From a bacterium (lineage in GTDB: Bacteria > Planctomycetota > UBA1135 > GCA-002686595), in contig JAUIDW010000014.1 in assembly GCA_030428395.1 (NCBI GenBank), positions 1 through 40,392 of the forward strand: a DNA stretch of 40,392 nucleotides, in the 5' to 3' direction. Positions 25,395 through 31,871 of the stretch are shown here, piece by piece; position 1 is the first letter of the stretch; each line of letters opens with the position of its first letter. The notes beneath the pieces are model-generated. The model was not told the DNA's origin. It did not search any database and saw only the letters and a program-made list of their open reading frames with translations. Both the position numbers and the translations under genes were made by a program.

Positions 25395-25619
25395 ATGAGC
25401 ACCACGAAACGAAGCCGCGCCATGAGCGCGCAGAAGATCTACGACATGCTCCTCGGCGTTCGAACCGCCGACAAGGTGACGCTGTACTTCAAGGACGGCC
25501 GCATCCTCTCGGGAGCCCTGATCTTCAACCAGTTCAAGGGCACCGGCCGCCTCATCAACATCGACGAGGAGCTCAGCGTCGACTTCGGCGTCGACGATCT
25601 GCGCGACCTGAAGCTCTAG
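25395..25619 (+). CDS. Small Hfq/LSm-like protein (putative RNA-binding)
   Basis: 74 residues (65 from the second Met at 25422). An N-terminal helix (AQKIYDMLLGV) is followed by a compact all-beta pattern: DKVTLYFKDGRILSGALIFNQF, TGRLINIDEEL, VDFGVDDLRDLKL. The KDGRxLxGxL core is the Sm1 motif of LSm proteins, and VTLYFKDG...LSG.L..FNQF parallels Hfq's VSIYLVNG...LQG.I..FDQF. This suggests a small-barrel RNA chaperone, but the Hfq YKHA motif is absent and no family is recognised with certainty. Its TAG shares bases with the TAG of the convergent gene in a CTAG palindrome. A strong terminator follows at 25647. Confidence 0.65.
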   Translation: MSTTKRSRAMSAQKIYDMLLGVRTADKVTLYFKDGRILSGALIFNQFKGTGRLINIDEELSVDFGVDDLRDLKL

Positions 25620-26416
25620 CGGGCTTCGCTCGCCGACCAACCACGGGCGCCCCGCGCGATCTTCTCGCGCGCGGGGCGCTCGCCCTTTTGGGCCGCGCGC
25701 AGGAGCGCTGCGTTCGCGAGCATGACGGCGACGTAGGCCAAGCCGGCGAGCGCGTCCTCGGGCCGCTCGGGGTAGAGGAAGTACATCAGGTCCACCGCCA
25801 GGGCGCCGGACAGCACGCCGTAGTGCAGGCGGTCGTAGGTCAGCTCGAGCGTGCCGAGGCCGAGGGCCCACGTCACGACCAGCGCGGGCGTCAGCACCGC
25901 GGAGAGCACGGCCGCGAGGACCGGTCGCCCCCGCCGCCCGCAGGCGGTCGCCAGCCCCGCGTTCAGCGCGGCGAGCACGGCGACGAAGGCCAGCTCGAGC
26001 GCCTGGACGCGCCCGGTGCCCCAGCCCTCGACCCAGGCCTGCCGGCGCGCGACCTCCGCCGCGTCGGCGAAGGGCGAGTCGTGGGGATGCCGCCAGTAGG
26101 GTCCGCAAATCACCTCCCACGTCGGGTCGTCGAACCAGCCGTACAGCTTGCGGCGGGCGAGGACGAGCACGAGCACGACCGCCGCGAGCGCCGCCGTCCA
26201 CGCGCCGAGCACGCGCCACGGGCCGAGCCGCCCCGCGCCGATCTCCCGGGCGACCCGCGCGACGCCCACGGCCAGCAGGAACCAGATCAGCCACTTGCAG
26301 ACCGGCAGCAGGATCCAGGCCTCCCCGAAGTGCGAGCTCGAGCCCCAGCGGAACGCGACGTACGCGAGCGCGAAGGCCCAGCCCCAGCGGACGTAGTCGT
26401 CGCCGAGGTTCCTCAC
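25616..26416 (-). CDS. Polytopic membrane protein of unknown function (paralogue of the upstream gene)
   Basis: 266 residues from a GTG overlapping the upstream gene's TGA (GTGA). About six or seven hydrophobic helices, e.g. WAFALAYVAFRW, ILLPVCKWLIWFLLAVGVA, VLGAWTAALAAVVLVLVLA, LELAFVAVLAALNAGLAT and a C-terminal LAGLAYVAVMLANAALLRAA. Between helices 3 and 4 is a soluble loop of about 40 residues with YWRHPHDSP. The second half aligns with the upstream protein (TYDRLHYGVLSGALAVDLMYFL against TYDEFHGGVLSSQLSLDLALFF), so the two arose by tandem duplication. No known transporter or enzyme motif is recognised. The strict coupling to the selenoprotein-like gene two upstream suggests a shared process. 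Confidence 0.75.
   Translation of the reverse strand: MRNLGDDYVRWGWAFALAYVAFRWGSSSHFGEAWILLPVCKWLIWFLLAVGVARVAREIGAGRLGPWRVLGAWTAALAAVVLVLVLARRKLYGWFDDPTWEVICGPYWRHPHDSPFADAAEVARRQAWVEGWGTGRVQALELAFVAVLAALNAGLATACGRRGRPVLAAVLSAVLTPALVVTWALGLGTLELTYDRLHYGVLSGALAVDLMYFLYPERPEDALAGLAYVAVMLANAALLRAAQKGERPAREKIARGARGWSASEAR
25647..25689 (+). terminator. Intrinsic terminator for the NUDIX/LSm-like transcript, inside the convergent gene
   Basis: Perfect 12-bp stem GCGCCCCGCGCG (25647-25658) and CGCGCGGGGCGC (25668-25679), 9-base loop, followed by TTTT at 25686-25689. It begins 28 bases after the LSm-like stop and lies within the last codons of the opposite-strand gene. Confidence 0.65.
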
Positions 26417-27258
26417 GCCGGCGCCTCCGCGCGCGCGCCGGAGCCGCCCGACGCGAGCGCGCGCGTCCGCGCCGCGACGGGCCTCGACGCGCCGGCGGAC
26501 CGCAGCAACCACGCGTTGGCGGCGAGCACGGCCAGGTAGACCAGGCTCGCGTGCGCGGCCTCGAGGCGCCTGGGGAGGAAGAACAAGGCCAGGTCGAGCG
26601 ACAGCTGGCTCGAGAGCACGCCGCCGTGGAACTCGTCGTAGGTGGCGACCAGCAGACCCAGCTGCTGGGACCAGACGAGGGCGAGCAACGGATTCGCGAA
26701 CAGGGCCGCGGCGGCGGCCACCCAGCGACGCCTCCCCAGCGTGACGCCGAGGAACGTGTTCAGCGACGCGAGGAGGAGCACGAAGGCGACCTCCAGCCCC
26801 GGGACGACTCCACGGGCCCAGCGGTCGCGCCACGACGCGTTCATGGCCGCGTCCTGCTCGCCGACGACGGCGTTCGGATGGTCCGCCGGATACCCGCGGT
26901 AGTCGTGGGACAGCACATGGCTGGTCGCCTCGTCCAGCAGGTTCGCGACAGGTCCGCGCAGGACCATCAGCGGCACCAGCACGGCGAGCAGCGCCACGCA
27001 CCAGGTCGCTAGCACCCGGAAAGGCGCGACCCGCCCGCGCGCCAGGAGGGTGTAGACCCGCAGGAGACTCGCCAGGACCAGCGCGAGCATCCCGAGCTTC
27101 ATGCCCCCCAGACCGACCCAGTAGAAGGCGTCCCAGGTCTCCTCCGGGAGGAGGCCGACGGGGAGCAGCATCGCGTACCCCGGCCCCCACCAGAGCAGCG
27201 CGTACACCAGCGCGACGAGCCACGCGTGGTCGACCAGCTTGCGGAGGAGCTCCCTCAT
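26413..27258 (-). CDS. Polytopic membrane protein of unknown function
   Basis: 281 residues; the ATG at 27258 overlaps the stop of the AhpD-like gene (ATGA), and its own stop overlaps the next start. Predicted helices include AWLVALVYALLWWGPGYAMLL, MKLGMLALVLASLLRVYTLL, VLATWCVALLAVLVPLMVL, LEVAFVLLLASLNTFLGVTL, WVAAAAALFANPLLALVW and SLVYLAVLAANAWLL. A loop of about 45 residues (HDYRGYPADHPNAVVG) separates helices 3 and 4 and corresponds to the loop in the downstream paralogue. The last 30 residues are Ala/Arg-rich. Family not recognised. Confidence 0.75.
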   Translation of the reverse strand: MRELLRKLVDHAWLVALVYALLWWGPGYAMLLPVGLLPEETWDAFYWVGLGGMKLGMLALVLASLLRVYTLLARGRVAPFRVLATWCVALLAVLVPLMVLRGPVANLLDEATSHVLSHDYRGYPADHPNAVVGEQDAAMNASWRDRWARGVVPGLEVAFVLLLASLNTFLGVTLGRRRWVAAAAALFANPLLALVWSQQLGLLVATYDEFHGGVLSSQLSLDLALFFLPRRLEAAHASLVYLAVLAANAWLLRSAGASRPVAARTRALASGGSGARAEAPA

Positions 27259-27836
27259 TCCGGGTACGGCGGCATCTCCGGCTCCAGGTCCACGTGGACG
27301 GCGTCGGCGATGCGGTTGATGTAGTTGAAGTAGGAGACGACCTGGATGCAGTCGTGGATGGCCACGTCGTCCAGGCCCTGGGCGCGCAGCGCGTCGGCGT
27401 CGGCGGCGGTCATCGCGGCGGGCGTGCGGGTGAGCTTCTCGGCGTAGGCGCAGAGCGCGCGGTCCACCCCGGCGAGCGGCGCCGCGCGCCAGTCCTCGAG
27501 CACGGCGCGCACGAAGGGCTCGCGCTCGGCCTCGGGCAGGTGTCCGACCTCGGCACGGAGGTCCGCCGCGTGGGCGTGGCGTCAGTAGTGGCAGGCGTTC
27601 GCATCGCTGACGACCACGGCGAGCATCTCGCGCTGGTAGCGGGCCAGGCCCTCGCGGGCGAACATGACGCGCGCGTAGAACGCCATCGAGGCGTCCAGCA
27701 CCGCCGGTGCGAGGCTCATGGCCCGCACGATGCCGTACACGCGGCCGGCGCGCTCGACGGCGGCGTCGTAGCTCCTCCTCAGCGGCCCCTCGGCCTCGTC
27801 GGGCCGCACCGTGCGGATCCAGGTGCCCGCGGACAT
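27255..27836 (-). CDS. AhpD/carboxymuconolactone-decarboxylase-family peroxidase-related protein, probable selenoprotein (in-frame TGA)
   Basis: Read as one 193-residue protein with TGA at 27584-27582 as selenocysteine 85. Both sides are in the same frame and together give the uncharacterized peroxidase-related AhpD-like family: REMLAVVVSDANACHY-U-RHAHAADL, then ALCAYAEKLTRTPAAMTAADADALRAQGLDDVAIHDCIQVVSYFNYINRIADAV. In AhpD the active site is Glu-x11-Cys-x2-Cys-x3-His; here Glu70, Cys82, Sec85 and His89 keep that spacing exactly, with the TGA at the second cysteine. A hairpin suited to a SECIS lies 18 bases downstream of the TGA. Such CxxU AhpD-like proteins are known selenoproteins. If no selenocysteine is made, only an 84-residue fragment results. 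ATGA overlap couples it to the membrane gene. Automated annotation would split it into two ORFs or call a pseudogene. Confidence 0.82.
27546..27584 (-). promoter_or_regulatory. Candidate bacterial SECIS element after the TGA codon
   Basis: On the minus strand TGA (27584-27582) is followed by 18 bases and then GACCTC-CGTGCC-GAGGTC (27563-27546), a perfect 6-bp stem with a 6-base loop whose second base is G. Bacterial SECIS hairpins sit at about this distance downstream of UGA and need a G in the first two loop positions. Confidence 0.6.
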
Positions 27837-27956: not shown

Positions 27957-28418
27957 TCACCCGCGGGGCGTGTTGCGGGCCCAGGTATCGAGCAGCTGCG
28001 AGTGGCGCGCCTTGGTGACGCTCAGGTGGTGGCAGAGCTCGGCGCGGTCGCGCTCGCCGCAGGAAGCGAAGTACTCGGCGAAGTGGCCGTACCAGCGCGA
28101 GGCCTTGTCCTCGGCCGTGACGCACGTGCGCAGCACGAAGGGCACGCCCGCGAACCAGGCCGTGCGCGCGAAGAGCCACGCGAGCGCGCGCCGGCGCAGG
28201 GACCGGCGGCGCGGGCGCAGCCCGAGCCCGGCCATGAGCCCGCGCAGGCCGGCGAGCTGGTCGCCCTCCTCCTCGACCATGCGCGCGAGCACGCGGCGCA
28301 GCTCGTCGTCGCGCGTGATCCGCTCGAGGTCGCCGTAGATCGCGCGCGCGCCGAACTCGGCGAGGAGCGCGGTCTCGAGCTCGACGCGCAGCGCGCGCGG
28401 GACGTCGGGTCCGGCCAC
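27957..28418 (-). CDS. Ferritin-like-fold helical protein
   Basis: 153 residues from GTG 28418, 8 bases after the aminopeptidase gene stop. The sequence reads as two helix pairs: VELETALLAEFGARAIYGDLERI / DDELRRVLARMVEEEGDQLAGLRGLM and AEDKASRWYGHFAEYFASCGERDRAELCHHLSVTKARHSQLL. This resembles rubrerythrin- or COQ7-like ferritin-fold proteins (ETALLAEFGARAIY; EEEGDQL in the place of ExxH; KARHSQLL as second metal helix). The first ExxH has Asp for His, and the second Glu is Lys, so metal binding may be altered or lost. A link to peroxide handling would fit the selenoprotein gene 120 bases downstream. Moderate confidence in fold only. Confidence 0.55.
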   Translation of the reverse strand: MAGPDVPRALRVELETALLAEFGARAIYGDLERITRDDELRRVLARMVEEEGDQLAGLRGLMAGLGLRPRRRSLRRRALAWLFARTAWFAGVPFVLRTCVTAEDKASRWYGHFAEYFASCGERDRAELCHHLSVTKARHSQLLDTWARNTPRG

Positions 28419-28426
28419 GGCGCGGC

Positions 28427-31018
28427 TCAGAGCCCCGCGCCCGCGGGCTGCGGCTGGAGCGCGCGCACCCAGTCCAGCTCGAACACGGCCTCGACCGCGC
28501 GGCGGTCGCGCGAGTGCACGGTGGTCGCGTGCAGTTCCTTCAGGTGCGGCAGCGCGGCGGGCTGCTCCAGCCGGCCCAGCGCCTCGACGGCCGCGCGGCG
28601 CACGCGGCCCGAGGGCGAGTCGAGCGCGCCCACCAGGACCCGCGCGGCCTCGTCGCGGCGGACCTCGACGCGCCCCAGCGCGGCCACGGCGGCCTCCTGC
28701 ACGCCCTCGCGCGCCGAGGCGTCCTGCGCGCGGCGCAGCAGCTCGGTCACGGCGCCCTGGGACTTCAGCGCCGCCAGGTGTCCGACCATCCCGGCCTCGA
28801 GCACGTCGTGCGGGGACGGCAGGTCCAGGCGCTCGACCAGCCAGCCCTGGGCGCCCCACGGGTCCGCGGCGCAGACCAGCCCCGCCGCGGCCGCCTTCGT
28901 CGACCAGGTCGGGGCGCGGTCGAACTCGGTCTTGCCGAAGGCCTCGAGCTCGCCGCTGCGGCCCCACCGCGTCAGCGCCTCGAAGGCCGCCACGCGCACG
29001 CCCGGGTCGTCGTCCCAGGCCGCGCCGTTGCGCAGCACCTCGAGCACGGCGCCGCCGAGCTGCAGGCCGGACTCCGCCCGCAGGCGCCCGAGCTGCCGCG
29101 CACACTCGCGCCGCACGAAGCGGCTGTCGTCCTCGAGCAGCGCGCGCCCGATCACGGAGAGGCAGCGCTCGACGATGGCGGAGACGGGCTCGGTCTCGGC
29201 CACGCGCGCCAGGGCCCGCATCGCGTCCCGCCGGCCGCCGACGTCGTCGTCCTCGCGGGCGATCAGGATCCACTCCTCGACGTCCTTCTCGGCCACGTGC
29301 CGGGCCGGGATCGCGCCGCCCTTGTCGAAGCGCACCCACAGGGGCTCGCCGTCGCACTCGAGCGAGAACAGCTCGCGGCGCTTGGTCACCTCGACGCGGT
29401 GGACGCGCCGGCCCGAGGCGGTGCGCACCTCGACGTCGACGGGCACCGCGAAGGCGGCGGGCGTGCCGTCGTCGACGGCCTGGGTCTGGTGGACGCTGAC
29501 GTGCACCAGGCGCCGCGTCGGGTCCCAGCGCCACTGCGTGGCGAACTCGGGGTAGCCGGGCGCGTGGAGCCACTGCTGGAAGAACGTCTCCAGGTCCTGC
29601 CCCGAGGCGCCCTCCATGGCGGCGCGCAGGTCGGCGGTCGTCACGCTGGAGTTCGCGTTCTCCGCCACGTAGCGGCGCAGCCCCAGGAAGAACGCCTCGT
29701 CCCCCACGACGTGGCGCAGGAGGTGCAGCCGCGCGGCGCCGCCGGAGTACGTGTGCCCGCCGGGGAAGAGGTCCAGCGGGGCGCGGTAGCGGTCCCACAC
29801 CGTCGGGCGCCGGTTCGCGCCGACGTCGCCCTCCAGGTACGCCTCCTGCGCGTCGCGCAGGCGCCCGCGGAACTCGTCGCGGCCGTCGCGCGCCCCGAAG
29901 AAGAGCAGCGTGGCGTAGGTCGCGAAGCCCTCGTTCAGCCAGACGTGCGCCCACTCGCGGCAGGTCAGCAGGTCGCCGAACCACTGGTGCGCGGCCTCGT
30001 GGACCACGAGGCCCGTGGTCGGCGCGTCGCGCAGCCCGCGCTCGTCCAGCAGGCACCGGTCGGTCAGCGTCGAGGCCGACACGTTCTCCATCCCGCCGAA
30101 GGGGAAGGCGTCCACGCAGGCCTGGGCGTACTTCGCGTACGGATAGCGCACGCCGGTCAGCTCCGACAGGAACGCCAGGGCGGCGGGCGTGTCCCCCAGC
30201 GAGGCGGGCACGGCGTCGACCAGCTCCTCCGCGACGAGGTACGAGAGCGGCACGCCGTCCCAGGAGTCGTCGAGCACCTCGAACTCGCCGGCGACGAGCG
30301 TCAGCAGGTACGGCGGGTGCGGCGCGGTCATGCGCCAGTGCTCGGTGCGCGTGCCGTCGCCGTGGTCCAGGGCGTCGATCCGCTCGCCCGCGGCGACCGA
30401 CACCCAGTCCGCCGGGATGCGGACGCGCAGCTCGGAGGTGGCGCGGTCGGAGGGGTCGTCGATGCAGGGGAACCACCAGCGCGCGTCCTCGCACTGCCCG
30501 TGCGTGAACACCTGGGTCGGCACCCCGTCCACCGGGCGGGCGAAGAGCAGCCCCTTCGCCGGCGTGCCGCGGTAGTCCACGGCGAGCTCCACGAAGTCCC
30601 CGCGCGCGAGCGGCTCGGCCAGGGTGACGCGCAGCTTCCCGTCCTCGTGGTCGAACAGCAGGTTGCGGCCGCGGTCGTCGGTGACGCTGCCGACCAGCAG
30701 GCCGACCAGGTCGAGCTCGACGCGCTCGACGCCCCCGCGCAGGGCGTGCAGCCGCACGGTGCAGAGCCCCTGGAGCGCGCGCGTCCGCGGGAGCACCGCC
30801 AGGTCGAGCGAGTAGTGCCCGGCGTCGACGTCCGCCGTGCGCGGCGGGTGGGGCACCGCGGGCGGCACCGCGAGCACCGGCCCGCGGGTCGCGACCCGCG
30901 GCTCGGGCGCGGAGCCGCAGGCGGCCAGCAGGAGGGCGGCCAGCGCCCCGGCCGCCGCGGGGGCCCGCGCGGCGCGGCGGCGGCCGGTCGGCCGGCAGAA
31001 CGGGGCTCGTCGCAACAT
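28427..31018 (-). CDS. M1-family aminopeptidase lipoprotein with C-terminal HEAT repeats
   Basis: 863 residues. Signal ALAALLLAAC gives a lipobox with Cys34. The M1 catalytic domain shows the exopeptidase motif GGMEN (308-312) and zinc site HEAAHQWFG (340-348) with the second ligand Glu363 in LNEGFATY, followed by the conserved Tyr region (HTYSGGAARLHLLR). After about residue 560 come helical HEAT-like repeats (AVAALGRVEVRRDEAARVLVGALDSPSGRVRRAAVEALGRLEQPAALPHLKEL). It probably trims peptides from amino ends on the cell surface or in the periplasm. ATG 31018 is chosen as it places the signal peptide properly. It begins the minus-strand run through the selenoprotein-like gene; its ATG overlaps an in-frame ATG of the divergent gene (CATG). 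Confidence 0.92.
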   Translation of the reverse strand: MLRRAPFCRPTGRRRAARAPAAAGALAALLLAACGSAPEPRVATRGPVLAVPPAVPHPPRTADVDAGHYSLDLAVLPRTRALQGLCTVRLHALRGGVERVELDLVGLLVGSVTDDRGRNLLFDHEDGKLRVTLAEPLARGDFVELAVDYRGTPAKGLLFARPVDGVPTQVFTHGQCEDARWWFPCIDDPSDRATSELRVRIPADWVSVAAGERIDALDHGDGTRTEHWRMTAPHPPYLLTLVAGEFEVLDDSWDGVPLSYLVAEELVDAVPASLGDTPAALAFLSELTGVRYPYAKYAQACVDAFPFGGMENVSASTLTDRCLLDERGLRDAPTTGLVVHEAAHQWFGDLLTCREWAHVWLNEGFATYATLLFFGARDGRDEFRGRLRDAQEAYLEGDVGANRRPTVWDRYRAPLDLFPGGHTYSGGAARLHLLRHVVGDEAFFLGLRRYVAENANSSVTTADLRAAMEGASGQDLETFFQQWLHAPGYPEFATQWRWDPTRRLVHVSVHQTQAVDDGTPAAFAVPVDVEVRTASGRRVHRVEVTKRRELFSLECDGEPLWVRFDKGGAIPARHVAEKDVEEWILIAREDDDVGGRRDAMRALARVAETEPVSAIVERCLSVIGRALLEDDSRFVRRECARQLGRLRAESGLQLGGAVLEVLRNGAAWDDDPGVRVAAFEALTRWGRSGELEAFGKTEFDRAPTWSTKAAAAGLVCAADPWGAQGWLVERLDLPSPHDVLEAGMVGHLAALKSQGAVTELLRRAQDASAREGVQEAAVAALGRVEVRRDEAARVLVGALDSPSGRVRRAAVEALGRLEQPAALPHLKELHATTVHSRDRRAVEAVFELDWVRALQPQPAGAGL

Positions 31019-31049
31019 GGCGGGACCGCGGAGGGTACCGTACGGGCCG

Positions 31050-31871
31050 GTGGACTTCCTGCTGGAGTGCATCGGCTTCCCGCCGGAGGGCTCGGTCGAG
31101 GCCCTGGTCGACCGGGCCCGCGCCCAGGGTGAGCCCGTGGCCTGGAGGGGCCCGGCGGGCGAGCACCTGCGCCTGAAGCTCGGCGGAGGCCTCGAGGTGC
31201 GCTACGACCGCGAGGACGGCCACGAGCACGCCTCCGTGCTGCCGTACTTCCAGTCGCCGCACCGCCTGCGCGTCGCCGTCGTCGAGGTGCTGCGGCCGGA
31301 CGACTCGCCCTACGACGCGGTGGTCCGCGGCTGGGCCGACCCGCCCCCGGGCCCGCCGCCGTGGGAGGTCCCCCAGCGCCGCGCCGACCCCGCCGCGCAG
31401 CCCACGGGCGCGTACCGCGTCGCGGCCCAGCTCTACGACGGCCGGCGCCTGCCGCGGCGCCTGCCCTGCGGCCACGTCGTGGCGCTGTGCCTGACCGGGT
31501 TCGCGCTGGACGTGGACTACCTCGGGCCGAACGAGGGCGTGCGCGACCCCGACATCCTCGAGCGCCCGCGCGGCGCCTGGATCGAGCCGCTGGGCGGCCT
31601 GGACGACCCCGGCGGCTGCGTCGAGGTCTCGCTGCGGGTGCGCGCGGTGCGCAAGCTCGTGAACCCGGTCACGGGCATCGGCGTGGACGCGCTCGAGACC
31701 GACGCCCCGGAGCGGCCGCTGCTGCTCTTCCTGAGCCAGTGGCAGCTGGACCAGGACGAGCTGCCCGCGCCGCGCCCCGGCTGGCGGGTCGAGGGCACGT
31801 TCCTGCTGACCGGCCACGTCGCCGGCGGCCTGCCGAGCCCCGCGCGTCGCGTCGGCCGCGCCTTCGGCTGA
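31050..31871 (+). CDS. Protein of unknown function
   Basis: 273 residues from GTG 31050. No family is recognised. It is a soluble alpha/beta-looking protein: FLLECIGFPPEGSVEALVDRARAQG, an Asp/Glu-rich KLGGGLEVRYDREDGHEHASVLPYF, then Pro-rich DPPPGPPPW, beta strands such as HVVALCLTGFALDVDYLG, SLRVRAVRKLVNPVTGIGVDALET, and a final GWRVEGTFLLTGHVAGG. GGAGGG at 31030 is a possible ribosome site, 14 bases upstream. An ATG at 31017 is in frame but overlaps the start codon of the divergent aminopeptidase, so GTG 31050 is preferred. It is convergent with the metalloprotease gene (7-base gap). Confidence 0.7.
   Translation: MDFLLECIGFPPEGSVEALVDRARAQGEPVAWRGPAGEHLRLKLGGGLEVRYDREDGHEHASVLPYFQSPHRLRVAVVEVLRPDDSPYDAVVRGWADPPPGPPPWEVPQRRADPAAQPTGAYRVAAQLYDGRRLPRRLPCGHVVALCLTGFALDVDYLGPNEGVRDPDILERPRGAWIEPLGGLDDPGGCVEVSLRVRAVRKLVNPVTGIGVDALETDAPERPLLLFLSQWQLDQDELPAPRPGWRVEGTFLLTGHVAGGLPSPARRVGRAFG

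Follow-up and report, generated by a model that had tools for sequence, protein, structure and literature searches.

A conserved in-frame TGA in an AhpD-like gene of Planctomycetota is predicted to encode selenocysteine

Under the standard code, two short open reading frames follow one another on the minus strand of the window, by which we mean the whole stretch of 40,392 nucleotides of planctomycete DNA that was analysed. With translation table 11 the first spans 27582-27836 (84 amino acids) and the second 27255-27512 (85 amino acids). Are these two genes, the remains of one broken gene, or a single gene whose internal TGA is decoded as selenocysteine (Sec)? We predict with high confidence that 27836-27255 (minus strand) encodes one AhpD-like selenoprotein of the TIGR01926 family, with the UGA at codon 85 read as Sec.

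A single reading frame and its family

The gene with its one in-frame TGA occupies 27255-27836 on the minus strand and encodes 193 residues plus a stop. It starts with ATG at 27836-27834 and ends with TGA at 27257-27255 (coding part 27836-27258), and with the internal TGA read as U no stop interrupts residues 1 to 193. This TGA (27582-27584, minus strand) is residue 85, the second redox position of a C-x-x-U motif. Its partner in the C-H-Y-U sequence is Cys82 (27591-27593), found in at least 90% of the rows of the homologue alignment (A1). Glu70 (27627-27629) and His89 (27570-27572), both on the minus strand like Cys82, are putative proton-relay residues and complete the active-site pattern E70-x11-C82-x2-U85-x3-H89; Glu70, position 85 and His89 are invariant in the alignment. 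The initial annotation had placed the TGA at the second redox Cys of a Glu-x11-Cys-x2-Cys-x3-His site, and translation puts all four residues where it had stated; it had named no strand, and the gene proves to lie on the minus strand. It had also proposed that a single gene was misread as two ORFs, with coding in the same frame on either side of the TGA. Both proposals held: the flanking frames are intact in nearly all homologues, and only the joined frame scores above the Pfam cut-off for the carboxymuconolactone decarboxylase (CMD) domain.

That domain (PF02627) matches the joined protein with 30.4 bits against a cut-off of 23, while the N-terminal half by itself stays below the cut-off (18.4 bits) and the C-terminal half has no match to it in the Pfam profile search. 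The read-through protein matches TIGR01926 (“peroxidase-related enzyme”) with 137.1 bits over residues 6-186, where the cut-off is 81.8. Scores lie below the cut-offs for NF041238 AhpD_rel_CFYUT (71.0 bits over residues 5-188; cut-off 175) and for AhpD proper, TIGR00777 (16.9 bits; cut-off 191.95). AlphaFold2, run with 32 sequences and with Sec modelled as Cys, folded the read-through protein with a pLDDT of 97.0. The nearest PDB structure is the AhpD-like protein of D. radiodurans (6k40; TM-score 0.84, 37% identity over the structural alignment), followed by further “peroxidase-related” structural-genomics entries. The AhpD-fold debrominase Bmp8 (6ohj) is a more distant match (E 9e-6, 18% identity), and AhpD of M. 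tuberculosis (1gu9) matches the fold weakly (E 0.04).

Predicted decoding of the TGA codon

The source genome (5.8 Mb in 554 contigs, about 92% complete) contains selA (E 1.5e-124), selB (E 1.1e-98), selD (E 1.4e-90) and selC, a tRNA-Sec detected at 74.2 bits with the anticodon TCA (UCA in RNA). Their absence had been named beforehand as one finding that would refute the selenoprotein reading, and all four were found. In the SelD gene (L018; G000:C130:2099-3043, minus strand), an in-frame TGA falls within the catalytic motif CAG-U-AGK, and SelD is itself a predicted selenoprotein. The genome thus appears to depend on UGA decoding for at least one further gene. In the AhpD-like gene, a SECIS hairpin would direct SelB and tRNA-Sec(UCA) of the same genome to decode UGA 85 as Sec, with SelA and SelD supplying selenocysteinyl-tRNA and selenophosphate. 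Comparative evidence strongly supports this predicted decoding step.

If the source genome read TGA as a standard amino acid (Trp or Gly), a TGA would likewise lie in frame within a conserved gene. We rejected this reassignment as having a negligible probability because ordinary window genes such as lon, M1 peptidase and alpha/beta hydrolase terminate at TGA; the SelA and SelB genes of this genome lack an internal TGA, no in-frame TGA was seen at non-Cys positions in the genes examined, and the aligned residue is Cys in 15 of the 17 homologues that lack the TGA.

Those homologues belong to a set gathered from 61 related genomes, a genome contig collection and 246 genomes sampled across Planctomycetota. 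With duplicates removed, 117 distinct homologues remain, and 100 of them have TGA at precisely the aligned codon; this ratio does not describe a random sample, since the genes were chosen from search matches and non-TGA ones were deliberately sought. The remaining codons are TGC (11), TGT (4), TTG (1) and GGG (1). Independent genomes share this TGA even where protein identity falls to about 35%, which in practice excludes a miscalled TGC or TGT. A nonsense mutation or sequencing error that makes a normal AhpD gene of the Cys type look like a split pseudogene would produce the two ORFs seen under the standard code, and the assembly is fragmented; this conservation of the TGA led us to reject both error and pseudogene as extremely unlikely. 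Their rejection is also favoured by the intact flanking frames, by the invariant active-site residues and by an RNA hairpin after the TGA that is conserved beyond coding constraint.

The hairpin, a predicted bacterial SECIS element at 27544-27565 (minus strand), has a 6-bp stem (GACCUC/GAGGUC, 27563-27558 paired with 27551-27546) and a 6-nt apical loop (CGUGCC, 27557-27552) whose second nucleotide is G. The distance from the UGA is about 16-18 nt to the start of the stem and 24 nt to the start of the loop; the folding energy is about -9.5 kcal/mol. In the published bSECIS model the loop has 3-9 nt with a G in its first two positions, the stem has 4-16 bp, the distance from the UGA is 16-37 nt and the energy is at most -7.5 kcal/mol (PMC13188914). 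The hairpin in the window agrees with all four criteria quoted in that source. The match between a SECIS element and its SelB can be specific to a species.

To control for coding constraint, we compared 99 genes with synonymous recodings that kept the codon use of each gene. In the real genes the best G-loop hairpin has a mean energy of -9.46 kcal/mol vs. -6.92 +/- 0.33 in the recodings, a difference of 7.8 SD; in eight control windows at other positions of these genes the difference stays within about 2.2 SD. A loop start at 24 nt is preferred (41 of the 99 genes vs. about 9 expected). In 94% of genes the pair that closes the loop is formed (75 C-G and 14 G-C), vs. 53 +/- 5% expected; the complete six-pair stem is present in 43% vs. 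12 +/- 3%. The minimum free energy of the whole region after the UGA is mildly lower than in synonymous shuffles (mean z -0.62), a signal no stronger than at one upstream position, and the single-sequence fold of the copy studied here does not stand out from its dinucleotide shuffles (z -0.54). Only the G-loop hairpin test with its control windows is decisive; the plain energy comparisons are uninformative. TGA conservation, the Sec machinery and this conserved SECIS-type hairpin together support the Sec reading of the AhpD-family gene with which the analysis began.

SelB decoding of UGA competes with release factor 2. Translation could mostly end at the TGA, leaving a functional N-terminal product of 84 residues and a read-through that is regulated or minor. 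Both outcomes are possible under selenium limitation, but we consider this account improbable: the C-terminal half is conserved as part of a folded domain (L135, T136, L150, G154, N174 and R175 are invariant in the alignment), and the AlphaFold2 model forms one confident domain.

Predicted Sec forms and Cys forms across Planctomycetota

Read as a selenoprotein gene, the TGA form occurs in at least 106 of the 246 sampled Planctomycetota genomes (about 43%). Among the matches listed, selB is present in 100 of these 106 genomes and in about 62 of the remaining 140 (Fisher p 5e-18, with approximate counts and a statistic that ignores kinship). Six genomes have the TGA form and no detected selB; a strong selA in five of them suggests that their assemblies are probably incomplete. 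The sixth (G119) has the TGA form, yet neither selB nor a strong selA was detected in it.

We built a maximum-likelihood tree from 97 TGA and 15 Cys sequences, with a midpoint root and a bootstrap that had not settled. A single large clade contains every TGA sequence, and the label changes three times in the whole tree. Three Cys sequences lie within this Sec clade. For two of them (L130 from genome G077 and L132 from G267) the genome has neither a selB match nor a strong selA, and for the third (L131 from G141) both are present. This pattern fits one ancestral Sec form with later replacement of Sec by Cys, in some cases in genomes that seem to have lost the machinery; given the midpoint root and the unsettled bootstrap, we infer the direction of change between Sec and Cys.

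The family was found in named records of Planctomycetota and in one Latescibacterota record. The latter, a contig labelled Latescibacterota (L058), carries a Sec form nested among planctomycete sequences, and reflects either horizontal transfer or a mislabelled assembly. The source genome has a second AhpD-like gene (L063; G000:C260:5376-5939, minus strand), about 39% identical, with a TGA at the same position in the motif CHYU-VVHHRRG. It falls in a second Sec clade that is present in many relatives. One locus (L133; G129:C155:92878-94027) holds AhpD-like genes in tandem: the Sec position is TGA in one copy (CHYU) and Leu in the other (CEYL). A further sequence (L138) has Gly there. The Leu copy and the Gly form are possible duplicates without the redox residue.

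Predicted reaction, gene neighbourhood and known relatives

Fold and motif suggest that Sec85 would be the attacking residue, activated through a Glu70/His89 relay, and would reduce either a hydroperoxide or a disulfide in a partner peroxidase. A selenenylsulfide between Sec85 and Cys82 would then form, with Cys82 as the resolving residue, and a cellular thiol such as dihydrolipoamide or thioredoxin could re-reduce it. We assign the attacking role to Sec85 and the resolving role to Cys82 because of mutant data from D. radiodurans, in which CxxC-motif variants of the AhpD-like protein complement poorly (PMC8945050), and because Glu70, position 85 and His89 are invariant. We infer the substrate and the electron donor from family membership, and somewhat favour direct peroxide reduction as the natural reaction.

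The same selenoprotein could instead be a thiol/selenol-disulfide oxidoreductase serving a peroxidase partner, or a reductive dehalogenase like Bmp8, alternatives to which we give a substantial though minor share of probability. AhpD proteins are able to act as reductants of AhpC (PMC8945050), Bmp8 is among the fold matches, and the conserved neighbours (M1 peptidase, ferritin-like and NUDIX-like) fix no substrate. On the other hand, the closest solved relatives are peroxidase-related, the match to Bmp8 has a low identity, and a D. radiodurans mutant without the AhpD-like protein is sensitive to H2O2 (PMC8945050); these observations argue against the two alternatives.

Antisense shadow ORFs were discounted when gene neighbourhoods were compared. 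Just upstream of the selenoprotein gene lies a gene for a ferritin-like (rubrerythrin/COQ7-like) protein of about 150 amino acids (27957-28406, minus strand, start codon provisional). A homologue is found in 18 loci including the window, in most cases a few hundred nucleotides before the TGA. Some of these homologues pass the Pfam cut-offs for rubrerythrin or COQ7, and the copy in the window does not. A ferritin-like neighbour would fit a role in peroxide or iron handling. By eye, the classical ExxH diiron ligands look incomplete in the copy in the window. Further upstream is an M1 aminopeptidase with C-terminal HEAT repeats (28427-31072, minus strand; PF01433, 144.8 bits), which occupies an upstream position in 36 loci, some of them one genome counted twice.

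On the other side, a gene for a hydrophobic, membrane-like protein of 281 amino acids without a match in the Pfam search (26413-27258, minus strand) starts within the selenoprotein stop (ATGA) and is probably cotranscribed with the selenoprotein gene. We considered it as an operon partner, but it is absent from the related loci compared. A NUDIX-like gene on the plus strand is convergent with the selenoprotein gene. It adjoins a gene for a conserved protein of 74 residues (25395-25619, plus strand) that is likewise convergent with the selenoprotein gene in several relatives and had no match in the Pfam search.

The initial annotation had described AhpD-like CxxU selenoproteins as known from metagenomic surveys, and the literature bears this out. 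They were reported from the Sargasso Sea in 2005 (27 sequences; PMC1088965) and from GOS in 2008 (AhpD-like 1, 299 sequences; PMC2398784), and a 2026 review places the family under TIGR01926 (PMC13188914). Since such proteins have been published since 2005, the protein studied here is not a new kind. It shares with AhpD-like 1 (COG2128) of Zhang and Gladyshev the TIGR01926 assignment of that review, a CxxU motif with Sec second and a downstream bacterial SECIS element. Those proteins came from metagenomic reads, whereas for this gene the host phylum and the gene neighbourhood are known, and its genome has complete Sec machinery and another Sec paralogue. The NF041238 family (AhpD_rel_CFYUT, alkylhydroperoxidase-related (seleno)protein) has a related fold and a CxxU Sec site, but its 357-position model describes a longer protein and our protein scores below its cut-off.

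The D. radiodurans AhpD-like protein (6k40), probably DR1765 of the mutant study (PMC8945050), has the same fold, a similar length and the same Glu/redox-pair/His layout of the active site, but its E-x11-CxxC-x3-H pattern carries Cys at the second position, where our protein would have Sec. More distant within the AhpD superfamily is AhpD of M. tuberculosis, set apart by its weak fold match and by a TIGR00777 score far under the cut-off. It has a CxxC active site with His and Glu.

Word searches found no mention of Planctomycetes in the GOS paper (PMC2398784) or the 2026 review (PMC13188914), and the main text of a genome study of planctomycetes with selenoproteins does not mention AhpD (PMC4807772). 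The near-fixation of Sec across the phylum may be the new part. Overall, what we add is modestly new: this near-fixation, another Sec paralogue, and a conserved neighbourhood that includes a ferritin-like gene. Tentatively, the TIGR01926 AhpD-like protein could be an ancient, near-obligate selenoprotein of Planctomycetota, with at least two Sec paralogues, reversion to Cys mainly in lineages that lose the Sec machinery, and an undescribed peroxide-handling operon with a ferritin-like (rubrerythrin/COQ7-like) partner.

Standard annotation splits what we predict to be one selenoenzyme gene in two, and the same misreading threatens about 43% of the sampled Planctomycetota genomes (at least 106 of 246). 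The near-fixation of Sec, together with Cys forms in lineages that seem to lack selB, offers a natural comparison of what selenium buys in an AhpD-fold enzyme.
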